DNA of 64,000 nucleotides, taken from positions 1 to 64,000 of the forward strand of contig NZ_JAAAHS010000002.1 in NCBI RefSeq assembly GCF_009908195.1. Reading direction: 5' to 3'. The notes under the pieces were generated by a model. That model ran no database searches. It was not told the DNA's origin and saw only the letters and a list, made by a program, of their open reading frames with translations. Shown piece by piece: positions 3,602 through 45,180 of this stretch. Both the position numbers and the translations under genes were made by a program. Every line of letters starts with the position of its first letter. The first letter of the stretch is position 1. The stretch is from Streptomyces boluensis (GTDB lineage Bacteria; Actinomycetota; Actinomycetes; Streptomycetales; Streptomycetaceae).

Positions 3602-5056
3602 TCAGGCGGCGGCCGCTGCGACCACCTTCCCGGCCTGTTCGGCGGCCCGGAAGCCGGACTCGATCGCGCCCTCGATGAACGCGCCGTTCCAGCCGCTCGC
3701 GACGTCCGCGCCGGCGAACAGCATCCGGCCGTGCGGCTGCTGGATGCCGGGCAGCTGACGAAGGAGCTGTCCCGGGCGGCGCAGGCCCCAACCGCCGCGG
3801 GAGTACGGGTCGTTGCCCCACTCCTGGGAGCGGTGGGCGACGACGGTCGCGCCGGGTATGTACTCACGGACCGCGTTCTGCACGGCCGTCTTGCTCGACG
3901 CGTCGAGGGACGGTCCCGCGAAGCCGACCATGAGGCGGCCGCCGCCGGGCAGTTCCTTCTGCGGTATCAGCATCACCAGCGGCGACGTCTCGGTGCCCTG
4001 GCCGTAGACCGCGTCGACGGTGCCGCTGAGGTGGATCCACACCTTGGTGCCCAGGCCGACGCCCACGCCCTCGGACGCCGCGTCGGTGTGCACCTTGGGC
4101 AGGCCCGGGTTGAACTGGATCGTCTTCCACATGTTGACCGGTACGGCGACGACGACCGCCTTGGCGGTGTGCACCTCGCCGCTCTTGGTCTTCACCTCGA
4201 CGCCGCTGCCGGTCTCGGTGACCGATGCGACCGGCGAGCTGAGCTTCACGGTGGCGCCCGACTCGTCGAGCATCGCCTTGAGCAGGGCCGTCATGCCGGT
4301 GGTCGGCCGGTAGCCCATCTGGTTGTGCCACGCCTCGGTGGTCCAGCCGCCCAGCGCCCACCACTGGGCGAGCGCCGTCATGGCGCCGCGGGTGTTGTCG
4401 CCGCCGACGTACGCCGACGTGTATCCGGCGAGCCACTTCTTGTCCAGCGCGGTCAGCTCCAGCTGGGCGATCCGGTCGGCGAACGACAGCGGGTCGACCT
4501 TCTCCAGCAGGTCCTTGCGGAACAGCGGGTCGTTCGGCCGCTCGAAGTACTGCTCCGAGCCGGCGAAGAACTTCTTGAGCAGCTCGTTCATACGGGTGTT
4601 GGCCTCGGTGGGCGTCAGCGCCACGAAGCCGTTGTCGGCCGGCATGACGGAGCTGGTGTTGGCCAGCTCCGGCACGCTCTGCAGGCCGTAGCGCTGCATC
4701 TCCTTGGTGACGAGCGGCTGGTCGGGGCTGACCCAGCCGCCGCCGAGGTCGATCTGCTCGCCGGCGAACGTGTCGGTCCAGATGCGGCCGCCGATCCGGT
4801 CGCGGGCTTCGAGGACGGTCACGCTCAGGCCCTTGGCGCGCAGTTCACGCGCCGCGGTGCCACCGGCGTATCCGGCACCGATGACGATGACGTCCGACGC
4901 CGCCTTCCCGCTGGGAGCGGCCTGGCTCACATACGCGCCGACGCCGATCGCACCGGCGAGCGCGGACGCGCCGGACGCCTTGAGGATGAAGCGGCGTCCG
5001 AACCGCGGGGCCGCGTGCCGCCGCGTGCTGGACGTGCTGGAAGGGTGAGAAGTCAT
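3602..5056 (-). CDS. Tat-exported flavin monoamine oxidase family protein
   Basis: A 484-residue FAD enzyme of the amine oxidase superfamily, expected to oxidise an amine or C-N bond with release of H2O2. The N-terminus has a twin-arginine motif (RRFILK near residue 21) and a hydrophobic stretch, so it is probably exported folded. The dinucleotide-binding motif VIVIGAGYAGG follows, then LEARDRIGGR and IDLGGGW, and the C-terminal flavin motif ending in SGWNGAFIEGAIESGFRAA. It is clearly paralogous to the amine oxidase at 14310, which lacks the signal. A perfect 11-base inverted repeat lies just upstream (5092-5123). The substrate is unknown. AAAAGG precedes the ATG by about 8 bases. Confidence 0.88.
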   Translation of the reverse strand: MTSHPSSTSSTRRHAAPRFGRRFILKASGASALAGAIGVGAYVSQAAPSGKAASDVIVIGAGYAGGTAARELRAKGLSVTVLEARDRIGGRIWTDTFAGEQIDLGGGWVSPDQPLVTKEMQRYGLQSVPELANTSSVMPADNGFVALTPTEANTRMNELLKKFFAGSEQYFERPNDPLFRKDLLEKVDPLSFADRIAQLELTALDKKWLAGYTSAYVGGDNTRGAMTALAQWWALGGWTTEAWHNQMGYRPTTGMTALLKAMLDESGATVKLSSPVASVTETGSGVEVKTKSGEVHTAKAVVVAVPVNMWKTIQFNPGLPKVHTDAASEGVGVGLGTKVWIHLSGTVDAVYGQGTETSPLVMLIPQKELPGGGRLMVGFAGPSLDASSKTAVQNAVREYIPGATVVAHRSQEWGNDPYSRGGWGLRRPGQLLRQLPGIQQPHGRMLFAGADVASGWNGAFIEGAIESGFRAAEQAGKVVAAAAA

Positions 5057-5091: not shown

Positions 5092-5123
5092 GCCGAAAAC
5101 AGAACCGCCGATCTGTTTTCGGC
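5092..5123. promoter_or_regulatory. Perfect 11-base inverted repeat, likely operator of the amine oxidase gene
   Basis: GCCGAAAACAG (5092-5102) and CTGTTTTCGGC (5113-5123) are exact reverse complements separated by 10 bases. The arm-to-arm distance is 21 bases, about two helical turns, which suits a dimeric repressor. It sits 36-67 bases before the amine oxidase start. Confidence 0.6.
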
Positions 5124-20956: not shown

Positions 20957-21802
20957 TCAGCCGGCAAGTGCCGCCGACCACAGCGGGGTCACCGCGGAGC
21001 GGTATGACCCTCCGCCGGGACGGTGCGGTCCCCGGGGCGTGGAGTCGCCGGGCGATTCCAGGATGTCGGTCTGGATCCGCTGCAGTTCGGCGGAGGGTTC
21101 CAGGCCCAGTTCGTTGCGGAGAACGCGGTAGAGGTTCTGGTAGGCGTCCAGGGCGTCGCCCCGGCGCCCGGACCGGTGCAGCGCGACGATGAGCTGCCCG
21201 TGAAACCATTCGTGCAAGGGGTATTCGTCCACGATGGCGCGGAGGTCCGGGAGGAATTCCCGGTGCCGTCCCCACCGGTGCTCGATCTCCACGCGCAATT
21301 CCCAGGCCCTGATACGGAGTTCCTCAAGGAGTACGGCCTGCCCGGCGAGGACCGCGCCGACCGGCACGTCGCCGAGGAGCGGGCCGCGCCACAGGGACAG
21401 GGCCCGGGTGAGGTGCGCGGCGCCCGCCTCCAGGGCCCCCTCGGCGACCGCCGCCTCCGCCTGTCGTACGAGTCGCTCGAAGCGCCGGACGTCCACCGCG
21501 TCGACGTCGACGTCGAGTTGGTAGCCGGGCGACCGGGTGAGCAGGAGTTTGCGTTGCTCGGTGGCGAGGCCGGACTCGGTGAGGAGTTTGCGGGCGTGGT
21601 AGATGTGCGTCTGCAGCGTCCGCGGCGCGGCCGCCGGGGGGTTCTCTCCCCACAACTCCCGTATCAGGGTGCTCGCGGGGACCGTCTCACGCGGCTTGAG
21701 CGCCAGAACGGCGAGGAGTTGACAGAGCTTGACCGCCTTCAGCGCGATCTTCTGCTCGCCATCGCCACCGAACTCGAACGATCCGATGAGGCTGACCCGC
21801 AC
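20957..21802 (-). CDS. Short SARP-family regulator (winged helix plus BTAD)
   Basis: A 281-residue pathway-specific activator of the ActII-ORF4/DnrI size class. It has the winged helix at residues 1-95 (VSLIGSFEF, then LWGENPPAAAPRTLQTHIYHARK with the recognition helix) and the BTAD domain to about 250, ending LGLEPSAELQRIQTDIL. I chose GTG 21802 because CAGGAG lies 7 bases upstream and the reading gives the normal SARP N-terminus; further upstream residues are low complexity. It lies between the large-tailed SARP and the transposase-like gene, all leftward, with spacers of about 150-210 bases that probably contain separate promoters. Confidence 0.9.
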   Translation of the reverse strand: MRVSLIGSFEFGGDGEQKIALKAVKLCQLLAVLALKPRETVPASTLIRELWGENPPAAAPRTLQTHIYHARKLLTESGLATEQRKLLLTRSPGYQLDVDVDAVDVRRFERLVRQAEAAVAEGALEAGAAHLTRALSLWRGPLLGDVPVGAVLAGQAVLLEELRIRAWELRVEIEHRWGRHREFLPDLRAIVDEYPLHEWFHGQLIVALHRSGRRGDALDAYQNLYRVLRNELGLEPSAELQRIQTDILESPGDSTPRGPHRPGGGSYRSAVTPLWSAALAG

Positions 21803-21922
21803 GACGCTGCTCCTGTTCTGGCGCGCAGGGCGCGCGTGCCGAGTACCGAGTACCGAACGGAATGCTTTGGCCACAGTAAGGAGCTGGTCGAGTTTCAGCC
21901 CCGGACGCCGACAGAGAGTGTC

Positions 21923-21948
21923 AAATTACCGGACAGTAGTTATGTAAA
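21923..21948. promoter_or_regulatory. AT-rich partial dyad upstream of the short SARP, ARE-like candidate
   Basis: AAATTACCGGACAGTAGTTA and the following six bases form an unusually AT-rich 26-base patch with TTAC near one end and GTAA near the other. Gamma-butyrolactone receptor sites (ARE) are about this size and contain ACCGG/GTT-like half sites. It lies about 120-145 bases before the SARP start. Confidence 0.35.
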
Positions 21949-21958
21949 GTGGTCTGCA

Positions 21959-23239
21959 TCACACGCCGGTCGCCAGTTTCCGTGACAGCCAGGGCAGTTC
22001 GATGCCGGACTCCTGGACCACGGCCACCAGGTGGGCCACCGATGCCAGCGTGATGTGGTGGTGCCAGCCGAGGAAGGAACGGCCGGCGAAGTCGCGCACC
22101 CCCACCCGCTCCGCGACACCGGTGAACTCCTGGACCGTGCGCGGCAGTCGGACCAGGCGCAGCAGCGGGCGCCACGCCTCGGCGCTCGCGTTCGTCAGCC
22201 ACATCTCGCACTCCCCCTGACCTCCCGCCGGCCACTCGCCGAGCAGCAGCAGCCTGCGGCCGCGGGCGCCCGCGCCCTCCGGCGAGGCGAGCACCGGGAT
22301 CGTCACGAGGGCGGTCGGCGTGCCCTCCGGCGAGGTGACCTGGCGCCGCAACCGGCTGGAGGAGTGGACGAGTTGGGCCGCGGTGTGCGCCGCGGCGCTG
22401 TACCGGGGCAGCAGCGCCCGGTCCACCCTGAGCTGCGCCTGGGCGTCCACCCGGACGAGGAAGGTGAGCCCGGCCGCGGCAAGCCGGCGCGCGAGCGTGA
22501 CCGCGTCGACCCCCGCGACGTCCACGACGACGGGGCCGGTGAGTTCCGCGGTCAGGCCCGAGGCGCTCAGGGCCGCCTCGTACACCCCGTCGTCGAGGGT
22601 TTGCGGAACCATCTCGTCCGGCACGTTCGCGCGCCGCCGCAGTGAGGCGTCGGCCCAGCGGGGCGGCAGCAGGAGGTGCCAGTCGACGGGCACGGCGGCC
22701 GTGGCCGAGACCATCCAGGAGCCCAGCGCCTGCTGGGCGTTGACGACCTGGCCGAGGTGCGGGACGTACCGCTGGTCGACACCGATGGAGTGCGGCCCCA
22801 CCTTGGGGATCGTGGTGGGCCTGATCACCCAGGCCTGCGGGTTCAGGGTGCGCCTCGTATACCCGGCGAGGGCCTGCCGGATCGGCAGCCACTCCCACGG
22901 CGAGGCGCTGATGAAGTGGTGCACGCTCTGCCGGGACGCCCCTCCATCAATCTGAGTTGCGACGTTCCGCAAGGTCTTGCGGCCGGGTGCGGCCAGCAGC
23001 GCTCCCACGTACTGCTCGGCCCAGATCCGCTGCTCGGCCCGTCTCAGCGCGGTGAACATCCGCGCCCCTACATCGGCGAGCAGCGCCTCAGAAATCTTCG
23101 GCGCCGCCGGTTTGCCCCCACGCTGCTCCACGTTCCCCCCGTGTTGTCCCCATTGTCGACGGCGACCCGCCGGGCCCGCGTTCCCTCGGGCCAGCACCCC
23201 TGCGTAAGCCAAAGAAAACAGCCATTCGGTCTTTTGCAC
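21959..23239 (-). CDS. IS701-family transposase homologue with lost catalytic residues
   Basis: A 426-residue protein (counted from the furthest GTG, 23239; the true start is unclear, and the conserved part begins near Met61). Its body follows IS701-type DDE transposases: GPHSIGVDQRYVPHLGQVVN, WHLLLPPRWADASLRRRANV, VVVDVAGVDAV and GRSFLGWHHHITL. The first catalytic Asp pair (DDTG in the family) is replaced by RPTT at 140-143, and the final acidic residue of FEGRSW is Ala385. Only the middle Asp (240) remains. The frame is intact and GC3-rich, there are no flanking inverted repeats that I can see, and it stands between SARP and ScbR-like genes. I infer a domesticated DNA-binding protein, perhaps a regulator. 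Confidence 0.82.
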   Translation of the reverse strand: MQKTEWLFSLAYAGVLARGNAGPAGRRRQWGQHGGNVEQRGGKPAAPKISEALLADVGARMFTALRRAEQRIWAEQYVGALLAAPGRKTLRNVATQIDGGASRQSVHHFISASPWEWLPIRQALAGYTRRTLNPQAWVIRPTTIPKVGPHSIGVDQRYVPHLGQVVNAQQALGSWMVSATAAVPVDWHLLLPPRWADASLRRRANVPDEMVPQTLDDGVYEAALSASGLTAELTGPVVVDVAGVDAVTLARRLAAAGLTFLVRVDAQAQLRVDRALLPRYSAAAHTAAQLVHSSSRLRRQVTSPEGTPTALVTIPVLASPEGAGARGRRLLLLGEWPAGGQGECEMWLTNASAEAWRPLLRLVRLPRTVQEFTGVAERVGVRDFAGRSFLGWHHHITLASVAHLVAVVQESGIELPWLSRKLATGV

Positions 23240-23287: not shown

Positions 23288-23320
23288 AAAAAATCGGCAC
23301 TTCTGGAGGGAAGCGCCGAT
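23288..23320 (-). terminator. Intrinsic terminator of the first TetR gene
   Basis: On the minus strand an 11-base stem with one mismatch (23310-23320 with 23293-23303, 6-base loop) is followed by six consecutive U residues (23293-23288). It is the only classical stem plus U-run terminator I found in the window and separates the repressor transcript from the transposase-like gene. Confidence 0.85.
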
Positions 23321-23382
23321 CGAAAGCAACTGAGATGGACGCGCCCGCGCCCACGCCCCGGGAAAACAGGACGACGTGTCAG

Positions 23383-24048
23383 TTATGTTGCGGGAACATG
23401 AACCGTCTCCGACGCCGCGCCGGGGATCGAGCGCGCCAACTGCTCGGCCCTGCGGGGTGAGGTGTCGAGGCGCGCGAGCACGCCGGCGGTCGCGACGTTG
23501 GGCAGCAGCAGCTGGTAGAGCGCCGAGATCTCCTCGACCAGTTCGGCGGACTCGGGCAGTGCCTCGGTGACCAGCTGCACGCCGGTCCAGGAGCCGACGG
23601 CCAGCTTCGCCACGGACCACGGGTCGGCGTGCGGCAGCAGCTCGCCGCGCCGCTTGGCCTCGGTGAGCAGATCGCGTCCCAGGTCGACCCAGTCCGGCCA
23701 CCGGGTGCCGAGCACGTTGCGGGCCTTGGCGTCGATGGACAGCCGGATCGCGGCGCTCATCAGCGGTTCTCTGGGCAGCCGGTAGGCCAGGAGCATGCCG
23801 ATGTCCACCCACTCCTGGAGCTTGAACTCCTGTTCCCTGACGCCCTCGCTGGTGAGTGCCTCGGCGAGCACGCCGCGGGCCATCTCCTCCTTGGAGGAGA
23901 AGTGGAAGTAGAGGGCACCTCGGGTCAGGCCGGTGCGCTCGACGAGCATCGAGATGGTCGCCGCTTCGTACCCCACCTCGTTGATGAGCCCCGCCATCGT
24001 CTCGAGGATGTTCCTGCGGGTACGCACCCCGCGCTCCTGCCGTGCCAT
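23383..24048 (-). CDS. TetR-family repressor, gamma-butyrolactone receptor (ScbR/ArpA) type
   Basis: A 221-residue cytoplasmic DNA-binding protein. The N-terminal helix-turn-helix spans about residues 10-55 (TRRNILETMAGLINEVGYEA, then GLTRGALYFHFSSKEEM), and the all-helical C-terminal domain has the conserved core tryptophans of the ArpA group (EWVDIGMLLAYRLP, WPDWVDLGRDLL, VGSWTGVQLV). It faces the AfsA-like gene across a 128-base spacer, the classical scbR-scbA layout, so it should repress that gene and/or the SARPs until the signal binds. GGGGGG lies five bases before the ATG. A U-run terminator follows. Confidence 0.9.
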   Translation of the reverse strand: MARQERGVRTRRNILETMAGLINEVGYEAATISMLVERTGLTRGALYFHFSSKEEMARGVLAEALTSEGVREQEFKLQEWVDIGMLLAYRLPREPLMSAAIRLSIDAKARNVLGTRWPDWVDLGRDLLTEAKRRGELLPHADPWSVAKLAVGSWTGVQLVTEALPESAELVEEISALYQLLLPNVATAGVLARLDTSPRRAEQLARSIPGAASETVHVPAT

Positions 24049-24100: not shown

Positions 24101-24128
24101 TTGAAAAAGAACGGAGAGTCGGTATCTT
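24101..24128 (+). promoter_or_regulatory. Putative promoter of the AfsA-like gene
   Basis: TTGAAA (24101-24106) and TATCTT (24123-24128) with a 16-base spacer fit a vegetative-type promoter. It would start transcription near 24135, giving a leader of about 40 bases to the TTG at 24177. Weak outer dyad ACTCTC (24083-24088) and GAGAGT (24114-24119) could be part of a receptor site. Confidence 0.4.
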
Positions 24129-24176
24129 AGCAGCGCGGTGCTACAGACAACTTCCAGCCGTATCAAGGGGGGGACC

Positions 24177-25085
24177 TTGACAAAGGTAGCCAGTGCTGTA
24201 CGCGAAAATTCTCGCGACGGCCAACCAGCCTTAAGCATCGACAAGTTGAGCGAGTACACCCACCTCAAACACACCGATTCCCTTCTCATAAGGGACATGA
24301 GACGGAGCGGCCCGGACACCTTCACGTTCGCCGTCCGGTGGCCGGCGGTGCGGGGGGCCGGCCGATATGACCCGCGAATTCTGGCCCAGACGATCCGTCA
24401 GACCGGACTTTTCCTCGCGCATGCCGAGTACGGCGTACCGACGTCCCACCAAACTCTGCTGAACCGGCTGGATTTCACCGTCTCGCCGAACCTCTTCGAC
24501 GGCTCCACCGAGCTGCTCGATGTCGAGGTTTCCCTCACAAAACCGAATGGCCGTTCTGCCAGCACGCTGATGATGGCGTTCCGGATCCACCGCGACGGCA
24601 CCACCGTTGCCACAGCCGATGCCGACTTCGGCTGGATATCGCCCGGCGCCTACCGCCGTGTGCGCGGTGTGTACGCCACCGTCGACTGGGGCGACTGGTC
24701 CCTACCGGCGCCGGTGGCACCCGAGTTCGTCGGCCGGGCCGCACCCACCGATGTGGTCCTGTCCCCCGGTGACCGTCCGAACCACTGGCAGTTGCGCAAC
24801 GACCCCGCCAACACCCTGCTTTTCGACCACCCCGTCGACCATGTGCCGGGTCTCGCCCTCCTGGAGGCCGCGGAACAGGCCGCCCACGCGGTCCTCTCCC
24901 CCACCCCGTTCGAGACCACCGAGATCCAGACCGCCTTCGAGCGGTACGTGGAGTTCGACCGGCCCTGCTGGATCGAGGCCGAGTTGCTCACCGAGCCCGA
25001 CGCCGACCGGTTCGCCGTACTGGTGACCGGCACCCAGGGCGAAGGGCCCGCATTCCTGGTGAAGTTGAGCGGCCGCAGGCCCTGA
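24177..25085 (+). CDS. AfsA/ScbA-like gamma-butyrolactone signal synthase
   Basis: A 302-residue protein with two hot-dog-type repeats, as in AfsA/ScbA/BarX, which join a beta-ketoacyl thioester to dihydroxyacetone phosphate. Family segments are YDPRILAQTIRQTGLFLAHA and GVPTSHQTLLNRLDFTV in the first half, and FDHPVDHVPGLALLEAAEQA and ERYVEFDRPCWIEAEL in the second. I chose TTG 24177 because an AGGGGGGG box ends three bases before it and the promoter would leave almost no leader for the alternative GTG at 24138. Codon 19 is TTA (24231-24233), implying bldA control. It is divergent from the ScbR-like repressor and convergent with an SDR. Confidence 0.9.
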   Translation: MTKVASAVRENSRDGQPALSIDKLSEYTHLKHTDSLLIRDMRRSGPDTFTFAVRWPAVRGAGRYDPRILAQTIRQTGLFLAHAEYGVPTSHQTLLNRLDFTVSPNLFDGSTELLDVEVSLTKPNGRSASTLMMAFRIHRDGTTVATADADFGWISPGAYRRVRGVYATVDWGDWSLPAPVAPEFVGRAAPTDVVLSPGDRPNHWQLRNDPANTLLFDHPVDHVPGLALLEAAEQAAHAVLSPTPFETTEIQTAFERYVEFDRPCWIEAELLTEPDADRFAVLVTGTQGEGPAFLVKLSGRRP

Positions 25086-25186: not shown

Positions 25187-25951
25187 TCACTGGTTGACGA
25201 AACCCCCGTCCACGGGCATCACGGTGCCGGTCAGGAACGGGCAGCGGTCGCTGAGCAGCCAGGCCGCGGCCGCCGCGATCTCCTCGGGTTCGGCCGTACG
25301 GCCTTGTGGCGTCATGGAGTTGACCATGTCCTCGAGGCCGGGGTTGCGCCCGAACCAGTCGGCGGTGATCTCGCTGCGGGTGGTGCCGGGCGCCACGGCG
25401 TTCACGCGGATGCCCTGCTGCGCGTACTCGTCCGCCGCCGCCCTGGTGAAGCCGACCACCGCGTGCTTGGAGGCGGTGTAGGGGGCGGCCGTGGGGATCG
25501 CGACCAGGCCCGCGACGCTGCTGTTGTTGACGATGGTCCCGCCGCCGCCCGCCAGCATCGCCGCTATCTCGTGCCGCATGCAGTTCCAGACGCTGCGTAC
25601 GTTGGTGTCCATGAGGGTGTCGTAGACGTCGTCGGTCATCAGGTGCATCGGGGTGCGGTCGCCGCCGACCCCGGCGTTGTTGAAGGCCGCGTCGAGCCGG
25701 CCGTACGTGTCCACCGCGAACTGCACCGCGCGCGCGGCCTGTTCGCCGTCGGTGACGTCGGCCACCACGTAGGACGCCTCGGCGCCCTGTGCCCGCAACT
25801 CCTCGACCAGGGCGGCCAGTCGGTCCTCGCGGCGGGCGGCGAGGACCACGCGCGCGCCCTCGCCGGTGAACACCTTCGCCGCCGCGGCACCGATGCCGCT
25901 GCTCGCGCCGGTGATGAGGGCGACCTTGCCAGAGAGAAGATCTTCAGCCAT
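25187..25951 (-). CDS. Short-chain dehydrogenase, possible signal-pathway ketoreductase
   Basis: A 254-residue SDR with TGASSGIG cofactor motif, NNAGV, catalytic Ser 13 residues before the Tyr of YTASK and a C-terminal PVDGGFV. It is of the common glucose-dehydrogenase-like type, not one of the GGTHGMG trio. It is convergent with the AfsA-like gene. In several Streptomyces (BarS1 in the virginiae butanolide pathway, ScbB in S. coelicolor) an SDR or reductase next to afsA completes the signal molecule, so that role is plausible here. The ribosome binding site is weak. A general metabolic reductase is equally possible. Confidence 0.85.
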   Translation of the reverse strand: MAEDLLSGKVALITGASSGIGAAAAKVFTGEGARVVLAARREDRLAALVEELRAQGAEASYVVADVTDGEQAARAVQFAVDTYGRLDAAFNNAGVGGDRTPMHLMTDDVYDTLMDTNVRSVWNCMRHEIAAMLAGGGGTIVNNSSVAGLVAIPTAAPYTASKHAVVGFTRAAADEYAQQGIRVNAVAPGTTRSEITADWFGRNPGLEDMVNSMTPQGRTAEPEEIAAAAAWLLSDRCPFLTGTVMPVDGGFVNQ

Positions 25952-26037
25952 GGGCGAGAGTCTGGCAGCCACGGATCGCCCGACTCCCGCTGGGTACGGG
26001 CCGGTTCGGGCCTTCGGCCCGGTCCTCGGCACGCATC

Positions 26038-36273: not shown

Positions 36274-37638
36274 TCAGTCCTGGTCGGCTTCGGCCGGGAC
36301 GACGTTGACGTTCAGGTGGAAGATGTTGCTGGGGTCGTACTTGTGCTTCAGCGCCGCCAGCTGTCGATACACCTGCTTCGGGTACACCGCGTCGATGTCC
36401 GCCGGGAGGATGTCGCTCAGGAAGCCGCTGTAGGCACCGGACGTCGACGGGGCCAACGCGGACCAGAACGCTTCGTAGGCGGGCAGCAGCGGCTCGTTCC
36501 CCTCCGGGGAGCCGAGCAGCACGCCCATGATCATTGCCTGGGTGGAGCGGTGGGGGAACGCGGTCGCGTCCTGCGGCACCCGGTTCAGGGCGCCGCCGAT
36601 GCTGCGGATCTCGACGTACAGGTTCTCGAGGTTGGCCTGTTCGGTGAGGATCGTCGTGACCAGGTCCCCGGTCAGGGCCGGGGTGAGGCGGTTGCGGACG
36701 CGCGGGCGCCAGCCCGGGGGGAGGTCGCCCGCGGGCTGGAGGGCCTCGCCGTAGGGCATAAGGCGGACCTGGTCCTCCACGACGGTGCCGAGTTTGCGGA
36801 TCGGGTCGATGGCCGATTTGGCGTCCGCTTCGTCGTCGCCGGCGTAACAGACCACGATGGCCAGGGGCGGGGCGGCCTCGCCGAAGGTCGGCCAGCACAT
36901 GGCGGTTGCGGTGAGCTCCTCGGGGGCGGAGTCCATGTGCGCCGCCCAGCCGCGCAGGACGGCGGCGGTCTCCTCGGGGGCGAAGGAGATCTGGCCGAAG
37001 AAGACCTGTGGGACCGGCTGTGCCACCACGGTGAAGGAGGTCACCACGCCGAAGTTGCCGCCACCGCCGCGGATCGCCCAGAAGAGGTCCGGGTTCTCCT
37101 CGGCGCTGGCCGACAGGATGCGGCCGTCGGCCGTCACGACCTCCGCGGCCACAAGGCTGTCCAGGGCCAAGCCGTGCTTACGGGCCAGCCAGCCGATGCC
37201 GCCGCCGACCAGCAGGCCGCCGACACCCACGCTGGTGGTGTCGCCGGAGGTGAAGGCCAAACCGTGCGGCTCCAACGCGGCGGCGACATCGGCCCACTGG
37301 GCGCCGGCGCCGAGGCGGACCAGACGCTCGGACTCGTCCACCACCTCGATGGAGTCGAGGTGCGCCAGGTTCAGGACCAGGCCGCCGACGTTGGTGCTGA
37401 AACCGGCGTTGCTGTGGCCACCGCTGCGGGTGGAGATCTCCAGATCGTGCTCGACCGCGAAGTTTATGCCGCGGGCCACGTCGTCGTTGCTGCGGACTCG
37501 GATGATCACGGCCGGGTGCCCGGTGTGGACGATCAGATCGGTGAGCTCGTCGTATCCCTCGTCGCCCGGCACGAAAACCTCGCCGGTGACTTCGGCCCGC
37601 AGGCGCTCGATGACCGCGGGGTCCAAGTCGCTGTTCAT
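36274..37638 (-). CDS. Berberine-bridge-type FAD oxidoreductase, mono-covalent type, copy 1
   Basis: A 454-residue flavoprotein with FAD_binding_4 domain (RSGGHSNAG, FAD-linking His75 expected) and C-terminal BBE segment (LKHKYDPSNIFHLNVNV). At the place of the second, cysteinyl attachment the sequence has Thr134 (SGDTTSVGVGG), so flavin should be bound through His only. The family oxidises alcohols, amines or C-H next to aromatic rings with O2. It closely parallels the gene at 60595. Start ATG 37638 has GAGGAGAG upstream. It ends against the 24-base terminator. Confidence 0.9.
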   Translation of the reverse strand: MNSDLDPAVIERLRAEVTGEVFVPGDEGYDELTDLIVHTGHPAVIIRVRSNDDVARGINFAVEHDLEISTRSGGHSNAGFSTNVGGLVLNLAHLDSIEVVDESERLVRLGAGAQWADVAAALEPHGLAFTSGDTTSVGVGGLLVGGGIGWLARKHGLALDSLVAAEVVTADGRILSASAEENPDLFWAIRGGGGNFGVVTSFTVVAQPVPQVFFGQISFAPEETAAVLRGWAAHMDSAPEELTATAMCWPTFGEAAPPLAIVVCYAGDDEADAKSAIDPIRKLGTVVEDQVRLMPYGEALQPAGDLPPGWRPRVRNRLTPALTGDLVTTILTEQANLENLYVEIRSIGGALNRVPQDATAFPHRSTQAMIMGVLLGSPEGNEPLLPAYEAFWSALAPSTSGAYSGFLSDILPADIDAVYPKQVYRQLAALKHKYDPSNIFHLNVNVVPAEADQD

Positions 37639-37841
37639 GGTGGTCTCTCTCCTCTTCCGTTGAGCCAGCACCCGTCGGCGCTGTCCTCTTCCTATACCTG
37701 TCAGTCGGCGCCGAAGCCCGGATCAGGACATGTGCCGCACGCCGGTTTCCGCGGCGGGACGGTCTGGAGGAGGTCATCTACGAGAAGGGGTCCCCATGGC
37801 CGGCATCCGCCACCGCGGCCGCCGGGACAGCGCGAGGGCCC

Positions 37842-37867
37842 GCCGGCGGCGGATGACCGCCGCCGGC
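37842..37867. terminator. Hairpin behind the HpaB-type monooxygenase gene
   Basis: An 11-base perfect GC stem (37842-37852 with 37857-37867) and a 4-base loop, about 55 bases past the stop of the leftward gene at 37921. Confidence 0.6.
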
Positions 37868-37920
37868 CAGGCTCTGCCGGCGTCTCAGCGCTCCTCGGGC
37901 AGCTGGCACGCGCCGTGGTG

Positions 37921-39450
37921 TCAGGGCCGGTTGATCAGATTCTTGAGGTCCGGGAAGGACTCCAGGTCCGGGACCGTCCAGCCGTCCAGGTCGTACTCGG
38001 ACATGCATTGCTCGGCGAACTTCTCGTAGTCGGCCAGCTGCCCGGAGGCCAGTTGACTGGCGTACAGCTCGACCCGGGTGTTCTCGTGGTTGCCCGAGTA
38101 GTTGCGCTCGTACAGCTCGTGCCGGCTGCCGAACTCGCTGCCGATGGAGTCCCACAGCAGCTTCATGAGCTTGGCCCGGTCCACTGCCGTGGCCCCGCCT
38201 GAGCCGCGGACATACTTGTCCAGGTACGGCCGCGTCTCCGGGTTGCGGAAGTCCTCGGCGCTGGAGGGAACGTAGATCAGCCCACTGGCCACGTCCTGCA
38301 GGATGATCTCCCGGATACGCGGGTAGCCGACCTGCATGAACCACCGGTAGGCCATCCCGTAGTCCCCGTTGGGCAGCACCGCTCCGTCCTTCCACGGCAC
38401 CGGGTTGCGCGCGGCCGCGTCGGACAGCCCCCAGAACAGGTTCCGCCAGGCCAGCACCTCCCCCAGCCGGCTCTGCACGCCGCGGAAGTCCCGCGTGCCG
38501 GTGAGCTGCAGCGCCTTGGACAGCAGACCGGCCAGGAACTCCAGCTTCACCGCGAGCCGGATACAACCGTGGAAGGTGAACCGCTCGGGGAAGCCGGAGC
38601 GGGCGGTGAACATCTGCACCTTGCCCAGGTCCCCGTAGATGAAGACGTTCTCCCAGGGGATCAGCACCTTGTCCATCACGAGGATCGTGTCGTTCTCGTC
38701 CAGCCGTGAGGACAGCGGGTAGTCGAAGGGGCTGCCGGCCACGGCCGCGGTCGCGGTGTAGGAAGGCCGGCAGATCAGCTTCACGCCGGGAGCGTCCATC
38801 GGCACGGTGGCCACCAGCGCGAACTCACGTTTGCGGATCGGCAGGCCGTAGTGCGCGATGAAGTTGTAGTGAGCCAGCGCCGAGCCGGTGGCCACCACCT
38901 TGGCGCCGCTGACCACGAGCCCCGCGTCGGTCTCCTTCTCCACATGGATGAAGACGTCCTTGACCTCGTCCGGCGGCCGGTCCCGGTCCACCGGCGGATG
39001 CACGATGGCGTGGTTCCAGAACAGCACCTTCTCCTGCGACTCGCGGTACCAGCGCCGGGCGTTGTCGGCGTAGTCCCCGTAGAAGTCGGCGTTGGCGCCG
39101 AGGGTGCCGAGGAAGGAGGCCTTGTAGTCCGGACTGCGTCCCATCCAGCCGTAGTTCAGCCGGGCCCAGCCCGCGATCGCGCCCTGTGCGGCGACCAGAT
39201 CCTCGGCGCTGCGCGGCGTGGTGAAGAAGCGGTGGGTGTACCCCTCGCCGCCGCCGTCGACCGGGCACGTCAGGACGTCGCGGTGGCGGTCGTCGTGCAG
39301 GGCGTCGTAGAGCCGGGCGGTCATGCGCACCGGGTTGTGGAACGCCGGGTGCGTCGTGACGTCCTTGACACGGTCGCCGTATACGTAGACCTCGCGAGCG
39401 TCGCGAAGGCTGTCCACGTACTCCTCGCCGGTCATTGGCCGAGTGGCCAT
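37921..39450 (-). CDS. HpaB/TftD-type FADH2-dependent aromatic monooxygenase
   Basis: A 509-residue large component of the 4-hydroxyphenylacetate 3-hydroxylase family, which also includes chlorophenol and pathway-specific tyrosyl hydroxylases. Typical parts are [20 protein letters not shown] at the N-terminus, [14 protein letters not shown], the central [33 protein letters not shown] near residue 265 and a C-terminal [14 protein letters not shown]-like segment. It hydroxylates a phenol using reduced flavin from a separate reductase, which I do not see beside it. The start at 39450 has AGGAAGG and GGACAGCA upstream; Met6 is an alternative. It may act on a free or PCP-bound tyrosine-like substrate. 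Confidence 0.9.
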
Positions 39451-39729
39451 TGCTGTCCTGCCTTCCTGTCGGTCCGCCGGGCCCGGGGCCGGCGGACGCC
39501 GGTGTCAAAGCAGTTCCACGCCACAGCGGGACTCTGATTCACAGCGAGCGGCTCCCGGTTACACAATGACGACCGCGTCCAGCAGCGGCATCTCCTGGAG
39601 TGCGGCTGTCACCGCCGTCCGCGTACCGGATCCGGGCATGCCGCCAACTCGCCTGTCTCGTCGACTTCTTGACAGGCCGTCAACAGAACTCCGCGTACCG
39701 CCGGGCAGCCACCTGGGGACCTGCTGTCC

Positions 39730-40968
39730 TCATCGGAGATGGACCGGCAGCTCACGTCGGCCGTTCATGATGAAGGTGCCCTGGCCGGCCAGTTCGTCCG
39801 GCTTCACCGCCAGCTCCAGCCGGGGGAAGCGCTTGAACAGCTCCTCCACCGCGATGCTCACTTCCATCCGGGTCAGCGCCGGGCCGACGCACCGGTGGAC
39901 GCCGTGGCCGAACGCCACGTGCCGCTTGTCCGCGTGCCGGACGTCGAACTCCCCCGCGGCGTCGCCGTGCAGCTCCGGGTCGCGGCCGGTCGCGGCGTAA
40001 CCGACCACCACCGGGTCGCCCCGGGAGATGGTCACGCCGGCGATCTTGACGTCCTCCGTCGCGAACCGGAACGGCAGGTGCGCGACCGGCGCGTCGGTGC
40101 GCAGCGTCTCCTCCACCACGTCGTCCCAGTCCACCTCGCCGCCCGCTGCCAGGGCGCGCTGGCCGGGCCTGGTGAGGAGCGCCAGCGCGGTGTTCGTGAT
40201 GAGGTTCCTGGCCGGTTCGGTGCCGGTGTTGAGCATCAGCTGCGCCAGGCCGACCAGTTCGGCATCGGACCCGGCGCCCGCCCCGGACACCGGGCACCCG
40301 CTCGGCCCGGCCGCGACCAGATCGCTGATCAGGTCCTCCCCCGGTTCCCGGCGCTTCTTCGCGACCAGGGCCTCGATCTTGCTCCGCAGCGAGGCGAACT
40401 CCACGGCCGCCTTCTGCGGGTCCGTCTCGACGTACCCGGCGCGGTCCAGGATGCCGTCCGGGTCGCCGTCGGGCACGCCGAGCAGCTCGCCGATCACCCG
40501 CGACGCCACCGGGTGCGCGTACCGCACCTTGAGGTCGACGGGCTCGCCCGGCCGCTCGGCCGCATGGTCGGCCAGTTCGTCCAGCGCGCGCGTCACGATC
40601 CGCTCGACCCGCGGTCGCAGCATGGCGATCCGCCGCGGGCTGAACGCACCGGCGACAAGGCGGCGTTGGCGGGCGTGCGGCTCACCGTCCGCGGTGGACA
40701 TGTTGTCCATCCGAGCCCAGACGATCAGCGGGAAGTCCGGGGCGAGGGTGCCCTCGACGTACGCCGGCCAGTGCTGCCGGGCGTTCTTGGCGAACCGCCG
40801 CTCGTCCGCCAGGACCTGCCGGGCGGCGTGGTAGCCGGTCACCGACCAGGCCTCGACTCCGCCGGGCAGCAGCACCCGGGTGACCGGCCCGCGGGCCCGG
40901 AGCCGGGCCGCCTCGCCGTGGGTGTCGGTCCCGGCCGGGTCGATGACGAAGAGCGCATCGTCGTCCAC
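39730..40968 (-). CDS. Cytochrome P450 with atypical oxygen-activation motif
   Basis: A 412-residue soluble P450. The heme-binding motif FGHGVHRCVG gives Cys360 as ligand and the ExxR motif is EETLR (287-290). The I-helix reads NTGTEPARNLI: the acid Glu251 is kept, but the usual next-residue threonine is Pro252. I prefer GTG 40968, since AGGAGG (40974-40979) lies five bases upstream; the ATG at 41004 has no ribosome binding site. It is divergent from the RebM-like methyltransferase. Its place near a free-standing C domain and PCP suggests a carrier-bound or late hydroxylation step; this is inference. Confidence 0.9.
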   Translation of the reverse strand: MDDDALFVIDPAGTDTHGEAARLRARGPVTRVLLPGGVEAWSVTGYHAARQVLADERRFAKNARQHWPAYVEGTLAPDFPLIVWARMDNMSTADGEPHARQRRLVAGAFSPRRIAMLRPRVERIVTRALDELADHAAERPGEPVDLKVRYAHPVASRVIGELLGVPDGDPDGILDRAGYVETDPQKAAVEFASLRSKIEALVAKKRREPGEDLISDLVAAGPSGCPVSGAGAGSDAELVGLAQLMLNTGTEPARNLITNTALALLTRPGQRALAAGGEVDWDDVVEETLRTDAPVAHLPFRFATEDVKIAGVTISRGDPVVVGYAATGRDPELHGDAAGEFDVRHADKRHVAFGHGVHRCVGPALTRMEVSIAVEELFKRFPRLELAVKPDELAGQGTFIMNGRRELPVHLR

Positions 40969-40973
40969 GTCTG

Positions 40974-40979
40974 CCTCCT
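40974..40979 (-). promoter_or_regulatory. Ribosome binding site that decides the P450 start
   Basis: On the minus strand AGGAGG is followed after CAGAC by GTG 40968. No comparable site precedes the longer ATG start at 41004. Confidence 0.75.
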
Positions 40980-41273
40980 GTGAGGACGGATAGGTACCGG
41001 TCATGGTGTCCGGTGGGCGCCGCCGCGGGCGTCTTCCACAGTGCGGACTCGGTTCTTGCTGAACGCGACCGATCGCCGTGACGCCGGTGCCGGTCCTTCT
41101 TCGGATGCGCGGGTCCCGGGCAGACGATCACCGTCCGCTCGTTGTCCCAACTGGCCGCTCCTGCATGACGGATTCGCGGCGACGGCCGCAAGCAGGAAGA
41201 TGCCCGCCACTACCCCCACTGCGACCCTGGGGCAGGGCTTGGTGGATCTGGTCCCAGCGCGAGAGGAGAAGCC

Positions 41274-42116
41274 ATGGAGAGCGCGACGACCACTGGCCAG
41301 ACGCCGGAGACGGACGAGACCGCCGAGATGTTCGACGAGTCGTCCGACATGTCGAGTGTGTTCAACGACGGCCAGGTGCACCTGGCCTACTGGTACGACG
41401 ACGAGGACGACGCTCCACTCATCGAGGCGACGCAGCGACTGACCCGCAAAGTGGCGGATTCGCTGCGGCTGCGCAAGGGCGATCGGGTCCTCGACGTCGG
41501 TTGCGGCCTCGGGGCCCCGGCCATCCAGCTCGCCACCGAGTACGGGGTGCAGGTCACCGGCGTCAATATCAGCACCGTCCAGGTGGCCGAGGCGCAGGCC
41601 CGGGTCCGGGCGGCCGGGATGGCCGACCAGGTCACGTTCCGGGTCGGCGACTACGGATCCGTGGACTTCCCGGAAGGCAGCTTCGACGCGATGGTGGCGA
41701 TGGAGTCCCTCGTCTACGTCGATGACCTCGGGCATGCGCTCGGCAACCTGCACCGGGCGCTGCGCCCTGGCGGTCTGCTGTCCTTGACCGAGACCACCCG
41801 GGAAGGGCTCGGCGTCGAGGCTGCCGGCCAGTTCGCCTCCGACTTCGGGGCGAAGCGGATGCTGTCGGTGGCCGAGTGGGTGGACACGTTGCGCGAGGCC
41901 GGGTTCGAGCCGGTGGAGTCCCTGCATTGCGGGCCGCGGGTGTTCGGGATGGGCCCCAAATACCTGCAGGCCGTGGATACCCGGCGGGACGAGCTGGCCG
42001 GCCGGTTCGGCGAGGCCGCCGTCGACGAACTCCGGCGCACCCTTGAGACCTTCTTCGCACCGGGGGCGGACCAGATCGGCTACGCGGTCGTCACCGTCCA
42101 GAAGCCCCGGAACTGA
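41274..42116 (+). CDS. SAM-dependent methyltransferase, RebM/EryG-like
   Basis: A 280-residue class I methyltransferase. Motif I is VLDVGCGLGAPAIQLA near residue 72, then VTGVNISTVQVAEAQARV, and MVAMESLVYVDD for motif post-II with LRPGGLLSLTETT. This subgroup methylates O, N or C atoms of sugars, phenols and isoprenoids. GAGAGGAGAAGCC precedes the ATG. It is first in a rightward group with the condensation-domain gene and the acyl-CoA-dehydrogenase-fold monooxygenase, though a 461-base gap separates it from the former. Confidence 0.9.
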   Translation: MESATTTGQTPETDETAEMFDESSDMSSVFNDGQVHLAYWYDDEDDAPLIEATQRLTRKVADSLRLRKGDRVLDVGCGLGAPAIQLATEYGVQVTGVNISTVQVAEAQARVRAAGMADQVTFRVGDYGSVDFPEGSFDAMVAMESLVYVDDLGHALGNLHRALRPGGLLSLTETTREGLGVEAAGQFASDFGAKRMLSVAEWVDTLREAGFEPVESLHCGPRVFGMGPKYLQAVDTRRDELAGRFGEAAVDELRRTLETFFAPGADQIGYAVVTVQKPRN

Positions 42117-42154
42117 ACCGCCGGGACGCGGCTTAGCAGGTCACCCGGGCCGAC

Positions 42155-42193
42155 ACCGACGCCGAAGCCGAAGCCGAAGCCGACGCCGAAGCG
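42155..42193. repeat. Hexamer tandem repeat GCCGAA/GCCGAC
   Basis: Six or so head-to-tail copies of GCCGAA with two GCCGAC variants just after the methyltransferase stop codon. Confidence 0.75.
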
Positions 42194-42240
42194 ACGACAT
42201 TCCCGTCCGGCACCGTCCTGGCGCTCAGTTCCTCAGCTCC

Positions 42241-42558
42241 TCACGGCACGCCCGTGTCCGGTTGAATCTGCCGGTCGTGGGTGGGGGGCGCAATCACGAA
42301 GATGCGCGGCCCTCGAAGCGGTGATGAGAATCGAGGCGCGGCGGCGCGAACTGCTGCGGCCGGCAGGTCCGTTCGTGACGGATGTGCGCAGTACCCGGCC
42401 ACCACGCCGGTCGCGAAGAACCGGACGATCGGCCCGGCCGGCATGCACAGCGTGCCGTCCGACAGCGACGACCAAGGCGTGGTCGGTATGGCCTGGTCGT
42501 CGCCGAACTCGAACGCGACGCGCTGATCAATGCCCTCCACAACGGCAGCGTCCGCCAT
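42241..42558 (-). pseudogene. Possible gene remnant, unrecognised
   Basis: From ATG 42558 the minus strand is open for 105 residues. In the first 65 codons nearly every third base is G or C and the peptide looks protein-like (RVAFEFGDDQAIPTTPWSSL, CMPAGPIVRFFATGVVAG); the bias then fades. There is no ribosome binding site and it is antisense to the leader of the next gene. I do not recognise a family. It may be a decayed gene or chance. Confidence 0.22.
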
Positions 42559-42577
42559 TTCTGAGGAGAGATCCCAC

Positions 42578-43912
42578 ATGACCACGACTTCGGAACCCCA
42601 GCAGGCGACTGCGGCGCTCTCACTGCAGCAGCAGTTTCTCTGCATGTTCGCCCAAGGCTTCGAAACCGGGCCGTTCGGGCCGCACTACACGGAGGTCTTC
42701 GCGTGGCGGGTCCAAGGCCGCGTCGACGTACAGGCCATGCGTGTGGCGTTGGCCGATGTGGTCGAGCGGCATGAGGCGCTGCGCACCGTGGTGGACCTGG
42801 AGAACGGGGGCGCGCAGAGCGTACTGCCCGCCGTACAGCCGGAGTTGCAGCTGGTCGACCTGGACGAGTCGCCGGGCGCGGACCGGGACCGGCGCGCCGA
42901 GGAGCTCATGATCGAGGCGGAGACCCGGTCCTTCCCGGCCGACCAGGTCCCGTTGCTGCGGGCCGTTCTCGGCCGCTTCGACGAGCAGGACTCCGTTCTG
43001 GTTCTGTGCGCCCACCACAGCGCCGCCGACGTCTGGTCGATCCAGCTGATCCTGCAGGACCTGGCGGAGTGCTACGCGGCTCGCGCGGCCGGGAACGAGC
43101 CGCAGCTGCCCGAGGCGACCCAGTACCGGGACTACGTCGCCGCGCAGCAGGAGGAGGCCGGCGGGCCGGCGGTGGCCGCTTCACGGGAGTACTGGCGCGA
43201 GACGCTGCGCGGCGCCAAGATCCTGGTCGCGCCGGTGCACCCCACCGGGCAGTCCCCCGCGACGAGTTACCACCGGTTCACCACCGACGCGCAACTGACC
43301 GCGGAGGTGTCCCGGCTGGCCAAGGAGACACGCAGCTCGCCGTTCATGGTGCTGCTCGCCGCGTTCACCGTCTTCATGAACCGTCGTACCCAGGCGACCG
43401 ACATCGTGGTGCCCACCTTCACGCCGGGCCGTGAGCACCGCTTCCAGTCCACGGTCGGGTCGTTCTTCAACTTCACCCCGCTGCGCGTGAATCTGGAGGG
43501 CTGCCGGACCTTCCGCGATGTCGTCGCCCGCTCCAGGAAGGCCTGCATCGGCGCCTTCTCGCATGAGCTGCCGCTGCTGCACATCCTCGCCGAGGCGCCC
43601 GAGCTGATGTCCTCGGCCGGCCCCGACGCGGTGCCGACCCTGTTCCAGGCCGTCCAGCCGCCCTATCTGATGCAGGGCAACCGGATCGGCGACCTCGAGT
43701 ACACGGCGATCTGGCGGCGGGTCATCCCGCAGCCGCTCGGCTCCGACACTCCGGACGGCATGATCTGGTCGATGCACCTGAGCGACACCGAAGTGGTCGG
43801 CGGGCTCAGCTTCAGCCGCCACCTCTTCGAGCAGGCCGAGGTCAAGGATCAGGCAGCCGAATTCCTCCAGGTGATCGGCGAGTTGGTCGCCGACGCGGAC
43901 ACGGCGATCTGA
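42578..43912 (+). CDS. Free-standing NRPS condensation-domain protein
   Basis: A 444-residue protein covering a whole condensation domain. The N-terminal C1-like region is LSLQQQFLCMF, and the catalytic HHxxxD motif is HHSAADVWS with His147 and Asp151. Later family motifs are PTFTPGREHRFQSTVGSFFN (C5-like) and FRDVVARSRKACIGAFSHE. It should join a carrier-bound acyl group to an amine or alcohol, or load a free nucleophile. GAGGAGAG lies seven bases before the ATG at 42578. It is followed after 11 bases by a flavin monooxygenase gene, so both are co-transcribed. The only stand-alone PCP nearby is at 49357. Confidence 0.9.
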   Translation: MTTTSEPQQATAALSLQQQFLCMFAQGFETGPFGPHYTEVFAWRVQGRVDVQAMRVALADVVERHEALRTVVDLENGGAQSVLPAVQPELQLVDLDESPGADRDRRAEELMIEAETRSFPADQVPLLRAVLGRFDEQDSVLVLCAHHSAADVWSIQLILQDLAECYAARAAGNEPQLPEATQYRDYVAAQQEEAGGPAVAASREYWRETLRGAKILVAPVHPTGQSPATSYHRFTTDAQLTAEVSRLAKETRSSPFMVLLAAFTVFMNRRTQATDIVVPTFTPGREHRFQSTVGSFFNFTPLRVNLEGCRTFRDVVARSRKACIGAFSHELPLLHILAEAPELMSSAGPDAVPTLFQAVQPPYLMQGNRIGDLEYTAIWRRVIPQPLGSDTPDGMIWSMHLSDTEVVGGLSFSRHLFEQAEVKDQAAEFLQVIGELVADADTAI

Positions 43913-43923
43913 GGGCCGGGGCC

Positions 43924-45180
43924 ATGATCGACACCGAGTACGCCGCGCCGGGCGCGGCCATGCCGTCCGAGGCCGAGGTCACCCCGGCCGTGCTGATCGA
44001 GCGGGCCAAGGCCATGGTGCCCGACCTGGTGGCGCGCCAGCACGAGACCGAGCAGCGGACCTTTTACGCCGAGGACACCCATCGGGCGTTCCAGGACGCC
44101 GGCTTCTACCGCATAACGGTGCCCAAGCGGTACGGCGGCTACGAGTTCGGCTTCGACACGTTCCTGCAGGTCGCGATGATCCTGTGCCGTGCCTGCCCGT
44201 CCACGGGCTGGATGTTCTGCCTGGGGGCCGCGCACTCGCTGTTCGCCGGCAGCATGTTCACGGAGAAGGCGCAGGCCGAGATCTTCGACGGCGGCGACTT
44301 CATCGCACCGCTCGTCAACGCCCCGTACGGAACGGCCAGGCGCGCCGAGGACGGCGGCTGGATCCTGGACGGTGTGTGGAGGTACTGCTCCGGTGCGCCG
44401 TACGCGACCCACCTGATGGGCAATACCGTGATCGCCGGGGATGACGCGAACCCGCCGCGGCGGCTGCTGTTCATCGCGCCCCGCGATCAGTGGGAGAGGC
44501 TCGACGACTGGGGTGGCCAACTGGGCCTCAAGGGCAGCGGTTCGCACAGCATCCGGATCTCCGGCGGGCACATCCCCGATCACTTCGGCATCGAGGTCAA
44601 CTTCGAGGAGATCTCGGTGACCGAGGGCACCCCGGGCCGCGAGCTGCACGCGCACCCGCAGTACGGGGGCGCGCCGGCGAGCTCGATGGCTCTGGAGGGC
44701 GCGCACATCGCAGTCGGCATGTGCCAGGGCGCGCTCGACGCGTACACGGAGCTGATGTTCTCCCGCACCACGATCATCCCGCCGTTCCTGCCCAGGGCGG
44801 AGGATCCCGACTATCAGCTCTGGTACGGGAAGGCCAGCAGCATGATCGACGCCGCCGAGACGTTGGCTCTCGCTGCGTCGCGGCGCTGGCACGAGCTGTC
44901 CGAGCTGCCGGTCGGGGCGTTCACCCCCGAGGAAGACGTGCGGATCGCGCTCACCTGCCGAGAGGCAACGGATCTGGCCTGGCGGGCAGTTGATGAGATT
45001 CTCCAGCCGACCGCCGGCAGCCCTGCCGTACGTGAAGGAACTCGCCTGGAACGGGTCTGGCGCGATCTCTCCACCGGGCGTACGCACGCCAGCTCCGCCG
45101 TGCTGCTCACTACCGTGGCCAACCGTGGGTATGCCCAGATGAGGCTGGCGAGCGCCCATCGGCCCGCACCGGACGCGTAG
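43924..45180 (+). CDS. Flavin-dependent monooxygenase with acyl-CoA dehydrogenase fold, copy 2
   Basis: A 418-residue protein of the HsaA/HpaH-like group. FYRITVPKRYGGYEFGFDTF near residue 60, CRACPSTGWMFCLGAAHS near 90, GGWILDGVWRYCSGAPYATH near 140 and a helical C-terminal domain with a Thr/Ser/Gly-rich stretch are the visible features; the Glu base of true acyl-CoA dehydrogenases is not evident. It should hydroxylate a phenolic or carrier-bound substrate with reduced flavin. It is the second gene of the condensation-domain operon and a distant relative of the protein at 16313. A terminator hairpin follows 55 bases downstream. Confidence 0.85.
   Translation: MIDTEYAAPGAAMPSEAEVTPAVLIERAKAMVPDLVARQHETEQRTFYAEDTHRAFQDAGFYRITVPKRYGGYEFGFDTFLQVAMILCRACPSTGWMFCLGAAHSLFAGSMFTEKAQAEIFDGGDFIAPLVNAPYGTARRAEDGGWILDGVWRYCSGAPYATHLMGNTVIAGDDANPPRRLLFIAPRDQWERLDDWGGQLGLKGSGSHSIRISGGHIPDHFGIEVNFEEISVTEGTPGRELHAHPQYGGAPASSMALEGAHIAVGMCQGALDAYTELMFSRTTIIPPFLPRAEDPDYQLWYGKASSMIDAAETLALAASRRWHELSELPVGAFTPEEDVRIALTCREATDLAWRAVDEILQPTAGSPAVREGTRLERVWRDLSTGRTHASSAVLLTTVANRGYAQMRLASAHRPAPDA

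Follow-up and report, generated by a model that had tools for sequence, protein, structure and literature searches.

A catalytically dead IS701-family protein, very likely a domesticated transposase, in a butyrolactone cassette of Streptomyces

Main finding

The window, that is, the whole 64-kb stretch of Streptomyces boluensis DNA analysed here, encodes an IS701-family protein that has lost its catalytic residues and is very likely a domesticated transposase, not a jumping gene. A repurposed regulator is the most likely reading because the cutting residues have been lost, the position between a receptor and an activator has been kept, and a unique 24-bp element lies alongside. That the protein itself binds this element and activates the SARP gene is inferred from co-occurrence and architecture, and is favoured only by a modest margin, with a probability of roughly 0.58.

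The features of the locus are the following:

20957 to 21802, minus strand: SARP activator gene (Trans_reg_C and BTAD), the proposed target
21873 to 21878, minus strand: -10 box TACTGT (TANNNT), 35 bp after the element
21914 to 21937, minus strand: conserved 24-bp element ACYGTCCGGTAANNTGACACTCTC, the proposed activator site of the SARP promoter, for which there are no binding data
21959 to 23131, minus strand: IS701-derived catalytically dead protein of 390 aa, with R104/P105, D204 and A349
23209 to 23236, minus strand: ARE-like operator of the ScbR type, preceding the dead IS701 gene, the second-best distinct site in the 64-kb window
23288 to 23321, minus strand: hairpin and U-run, read directly from the sequence
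23383 to 24048, minus strand: ScbR-type gamma-butyrolactone receptor (TetR_N), approximately 53-66% identical in the cassette loci
24102 to 24129, minus strand: weaker ARE-like site, within the divergent promoter region between AfsA and ScbR
24138 to 25085, plus strand: AfsA/ScbA-type butyrolactone synthase, whose start codon is uncertain, 24297 being preferred by the gene caller
25187 to 25972, minus strand: short-chain dehydrogenase, a recurrent cassette neighbour (cluster c5, 16 loci)

Organisation of the locus

The ScbR-type receptor gene is divergent from AfsA, and the dead IS701 gene lies between ScbR and the SARP, which is the location given by the original prediction, made from the sequence alone. 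A full-length intact frame at 21959-23239 had also been predicted, and an uninterrupted minus-strand ORF, without frameshift, does span these positions, with the correction that translation very probably starts at GTG 23131, giving 390 aa, and not at the 23239 end of the frame, because a G-rich Shine-Dalgarno sequence common to the relatives is found at that point. The first 36 codons of the longer frame overlap the ARE-like operator. The claim of a normal GC3 received only indirect support, from a codon model trained on relatives, which calls the gene, and that of an upstream U-run terminator belonging to the gene itself held in part: the hairpin and the U-run are real but, given their position after ScbR, they are most simply explained as a terminator for ScbR.

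Family, loss of the catalytic residues and predicted fold

The homology to IS701 is evident from a score of 259 bits against the NCBIfam model NF033540 (cut-off 150) and from a match to Pfam DDE_5. In an alignment that includes four canonical IS701 transposases, R104/P105 stand in place of the DD pair and A349 in place of the Glu of FEGRS, and the second catalytic Asp is retained as D204. In the numbering of the longer frame, these residues are 140/141, Ala385 and Asp240, respectively, and the predicted loss of the DD pair (RPTT), change of Glu to Ala, and survival of Asp240 alone are all upheld by this alignment. A DDE triad at shifted positions, which would have refuted the prediction, left no sign in the aligned columns of a protein with a Tn5-like fold.

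The DD pair is absent from all of the approximately 85 family members aligned against the four canonical references, the first Asp being retained in two distant relatives and the Glu in many. Within the cassette clade, DFAGRS, with Ala, was found in 10/10 of the aligned sequences, and Asp204 is invariant together with several other Asp residues, such as Asp209 and Asp347.

An AlphaFold2 model based on 50 homologues reached a pLDDT of 91 and a pTM of 0.91, and its best fold match in the PDB was the Tn5 transposase (Z 23.3 over 339 residues, model 11-390 versus Tn5 4-405), with the Tn5 inhibitor 1b7e also among the matches (Z 16); a PDB sequence search found nothing. As the Tn5 match runs over the full length, the transposase architecture appears to have been kept in its entirety, N-terminal DNA-binding part included, as far as the model predicts. 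The most conserved region of the cassette clade is formed by residues 24-98, which are 64% identical, with 29 of the 75 positions invariant.

As had been predicted, no terminal inverted repeats were found at the window gene by an inverted-repeat script, which recovered repeats of 18-23 bp in three of four canonical controls (pSV2, ISBj6 and the Leptolyngbya IS701) and none in the fourth. Canonical IS701 ends begin with CTAG, unlike the conserved 24-bp element. No near-identical second copy was detected in the genome (a draft assembly of 793 contigs), where the sole other match is 34% identical. On contig C95 of the same genome (3947-4902), an IS701 transposase match is broken across several frames.

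Distribution of the clade

Catalytic loss is common to a large Streptomyces clade, and the window gene is not an isolated relic. Matches at E<=1e-60 were found in 88 of 296 genomes of the same genus, the window's own included, and a maximum-likelihood tree separates the DD-less clade from the canonical IS701 references at 100/100 support, with relatives outside Streptomyces found in a Kutzneria MAG and in Sciscionella. When the genome contigs were scanned with a single sequence, no relatives were recovered; the scan with an alignment recovered 80 loci.

A separate IS701-like branch, formed by L002 (contig C534 of the window's own genome) and L124, retains both the first and the second Asp, together with the Glu (WTLDVAV / VVAD / DFEGRS), and in S. 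finlayi this branch is also near ScbA/ScbR; it may possibly be an intermediate stage of domestication. In many Streptomyces, a closely similar but separate subgroup of the clade (L043-L051 and many of L148-L200) has a convergent SARP at about 2.5 kb.

The butyrolactone cassette and selection

The cassette is conserved in about two dozen genomes, across species, and the recurrent order in the closest relatives is a divergent AfsA followed by ScbR, the dead IS701 and the SARP on one strand. The check for dead homologues beside SARPs, suggested with the original prediction, came out in its favour, given that DD-less homologues recur beside ScbR, AfsA and SARP genes. The genes beyond the cassette vary from locus to locus, and its linkage therefore does not reflect one cluster that was copied whole. 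TetR-type paralogues (cluster c7) are frequently near the cassette loci.

Two other arrangements were found. In the tandem version, a second dead IS701 substitutes for the SARP, while on the plasmids of S. exfoliatus and NBC_00250 the order, here called type B, is a dead IS701 and then a SARP, facing ScbR. In the tandem loci L139, L130, L140, L141 and L226, DAHP synthase, isochorismatase and chorismate-binding genes follow, which form a phenazine-type set.

The relatives of the dead IS701 gene are under purifying selection, with dN/dS values (Nei-Gojobori) of 0.08-0.53 in pairs of close homologues, comparable with those of the SARP, ScbR and AfsA genes of the same loci; GC-rich codons would tend to inflate these values. 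A ratio near one, which would have counted against a selected protein, was not seen in these pairs, although the window gene itself cannot be measured reliably, given that its closest homologues share only about 53-55% identity with it. The original prediction of a domesticated, non-transposing regulator is supported, with DNA binding and regulation themselves inferred, and is extended by the clade-wide catalytic loss, the cassette shared across species, and the unique conserved promoter element.

The 24-bp element

The element ACYGTCCGGTAANNTGACACTCTC, which sits between the dead IS701 and the SARP, occurs only once in the 8.2-Mb genome, even when up to 3 mismatches are allowed. Compared with 23 other loci, it is 75-96% identical, versus 15-53% in its flanks, and a matrix of the element gave 34 matches in 3.0 Mb of loci (some of which are duplicates), versus none with the reversed matrix. 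In 393 genomes, an 18-base core had 19 matches at <=1 mismatch, and its reversed control had 6 by a count from the table. The 11 exact matches all directly adjoin a dead IS701 of the clade, and three of the mismatched ones are apparently due to chance, with no cassette gene nearby. In held-out genomes, the element was present in 3/3 cassette loci and in 0/5 of the other members of the clade, although L241, one of the held-out loci, is closely related to L135, so the three positives are not fully independent.

The co-occurrence shows that the element tracks the dead IS701, and not ScbR or the SARP. It is retained in the tandem loci without an adjacent SARP, and in L226, L230 and L138, where no cassette-type ScbR was detected. 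In L135 and L241, the element accompanies the SARP, 2.6-2.7 kb from the dead IS701, and this shared movement identifies it as a promoter element rather than as a tail end of the transposase gene. In G242, it precedes a SARP, and the closest dead IS701 that was detected is about 10 kb from it. The cassette of L129 has a degenerate element, and the element is absent from the type-B cassettes of S. exfoliatus and NBC_00250. One part of it, AAC.GGACTACCGTCCGGTAA, looks like half of an ARE palindrome in many loci.

Two other readings of the element were considered. A relic transposon end was rejected, given that the element travels with the SARP in L135 and L241, that the CTAG ends differ from it, and that there is no matching upstream copy. 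A generic ScbR operator is unsupported, as AfsA homologues are found in 80 of 121 genomes, versus exact cores in 11 of 393.

Promoter architecture and ARE-like sites

The spacing between the element and the -10 box is fixed: of 27 loci, 26 contain just one TANNNT within 75 bp, and it falls 35-37 bp from the element on its downstream side. The exception is L129, with its degenerate element. In the held-out L246, the element is present and an exact TANNNT is absent. No conserved -35 hexamer was found across the 27 loci, and the DNA between the element and the -10 box is not conserved. The TTGACA inside the element was rejected as a -35 box, given that there is no conserved -10 sequence 17 bp downstream, the TANNNT being at 35-37 bp. 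By inference, the fixed spacing resembles that of an activator site near -60.

The matrix used to score the ARE-like sites was derived exclusively from other loci, where the sites were picked by eye; 23209-23236 and 24102-24129 both score well. The first of these immediately precedes the dead IS701 gene, which suggests control by ScbR, an inference without binding data. The best ARE-like palindrome in the window, at 5093-5122 (CCGAAAACAGATCGGCGGTTCTGTTTTC), lies upstream of a minus-strand gene (3602-5056) that may be a further target of ScbR. In the type-B loci L122, L064, L172 and L237, an ARE-like AAACCGGCTGTGTGGTTTCATTT precedes the dead IS701, about 74-88 bp separate this gene from the SARP, and there is no 24-bp element; the two genes may possibly form one operon.

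Proposed mechanism

In the mechanism proposed here, an IS701-family transposase with a Tn5-like fold would have been domesticated in Streptomyces, with the loss of two catalytic carboxylates and of the transposon ends and the retention of the fold and the N-terminal DNA-binding part. ScbR would repress the dead IS701 gene through the ARE-like operator until butyrolactone releases it, and the dead transposase would then bind the 24-bp element, whose centre lies some 60 bp before the putative transcription start of the SARP, predicted near 21866 in the window, or, in the tandem loci, before the start of the second dead IS701. Once bound, it may recruit RNA polymerase to a promoter with a -10 box but without a conserved -35, and the SARP would then turn the cluster on. 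Four parts of this scheme go beyond what the sequence analysis shows and are inferred: that ScbR controls the gene, that the protein binds the element, where transcription starts, and that the effect is activation.

Alternative explanations

The main rival, which remains possible, accepts a domesticated regulator and assigns the element to ScbR or to one of its paralogues, with the dead transposase acting elsewhere, through protein contact, or as a repressor. It is the main rival because the left half of the element is ARE-like in many loci and resembles the operator upstream of the dead IS701, and this rival is also favoured by the c7 paralogues that are often close by. On the other hand, the exact cores are far scarcer than the AfsA homologues (the 11/393 and 80/121 genomes given above) and all adjoin the dead-IS701 clade, an ARE does not include the conserved TGACACTCTC half, the element is kept in the three loci without a detected cassette-type ScbR, and the ARE matrix leaves the element of the window outside the top sites.

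A recent, decaying insertion that landed by chance in the regulatory core would account for an IS701 homology above the NCBIfam cut-off. This is very improbable, however, given the same position in many species, the frame without frameshift, the lack of ends, the purifying selection in relatives, and the absence of a close second copy in the genome.

It is also highly unlikely that DNA cutting persists through shifted acidic residues, such as the invariant Asp204, Asp209 or Asp347. The invariance of these and several other Asp residues in the cassette clade is in its favour, but the alignment with canonical IS701 places R/P at the positions of the DD pair and A at that of the Glu, and no transposon ends were found that could serve as substrate.

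There is very little to sustain an inhibitor of transposition like that of Tn5, which would bind the ends of related IS701 elements or form dead heterodimers: 1b7e is among the fold matches (Z 16) and the genome contains IS701 relatives, but the DNA-binding domain is retained, unlike that of the Tn5 inhibitor, the association is with ScbR, SARP and AfsA and not with live elements, and the canonical CTAG ends are unlike the conserved element.

Relation to known systems and significance

The preferred reading, a domesticated activator, can be set against several known systems. The protein shares full-length homology (NF033540, DDE_5) and a predicted Tn5-like fold with the IS701 transposases, but lacks their DD pair and Glu, repeats and close second copy, and its chromosomal context is fixed. 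Gamma-butyrolactone loci pair ScbR/AfsA with a SARP target, as in scbR-scbA-cpkO, and the window has the same divergent AfsA/ScbR and nearby SARP, along with putative ARE-like operators; unlike these loci, it has a conserved extra, transposase-derived gene ahead of the SARP promoter, and this promoter carries a 24-bp element of its own. The Tn5 transposase inhibitor (PDB 1b7e), a non-transposing regulatory product, has the same fold. This inhibitor lacks N-terminal DNA-binding residues and acts on transposition, whereas the N terminus of the window protein is untruncated and is its most conserved part, with no element around it.

The TldR proteins are nuclease-dead, TnpB-derived, RNA-guided transcription factors (PMC13418256) and, as proposed for the dead IS701, they represent a transposon-encoded protein that became a bacterial transcription factor after the loss of catalysis. 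In contrast to TldR, the window protein is a DDE transposase, with a DNA site that is proposed to be read by the protein. Transposon proteins that became regulators are thus already known in bacteria, and what would be new is a DDE transposase in hormone-controlled antibiotic regulation.

No description of the dead IS701 family or of the cassette was found in the open-access literature searched, most subscription journals being outside its scope. In the penzonemycin cluster, a 432-aa "transposase", pzm10, is listed without comment (PMC9323291); like the dead IS701, it is a transposase-annotated gene in a Streptomyces biosynthetic cluster with a SARP-family regulator, although its membership of the clade is not established. 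Given that pipelines label these genes as transposases, they are likely to be thrown out as noise during cluster curation.

If these proteins are activators, they would account for how some butyrolactone systems reach the SARP and would offer a handle for waking silent clusters, as well as a case of a bacterial DDE transposase turned into a sequence-specific transcription factor, with a candidate binding site in hand. In a bolder reading, which must be taken as a whole and is as likely to fail as to hold, Streptomyces would hold a large, overlooked family of transcription factors derived from dead DDE (IS701/Tn5-fold) transposases, the cassette branch would be an extra tier of butyrolactone signalling that reads the 24-bp element and switches on SARPs, and hundreds of genes labelled "transposase" would regulate antibiotic clusters.

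Within the window, a cluster possibly under the control of the cassette is found at 36274-45180, with an HpaB-type hydroxylase, an FAD-binding oxidase, a P450, a free-standing condensation domain and an acyl-CoA dehydrogenase.
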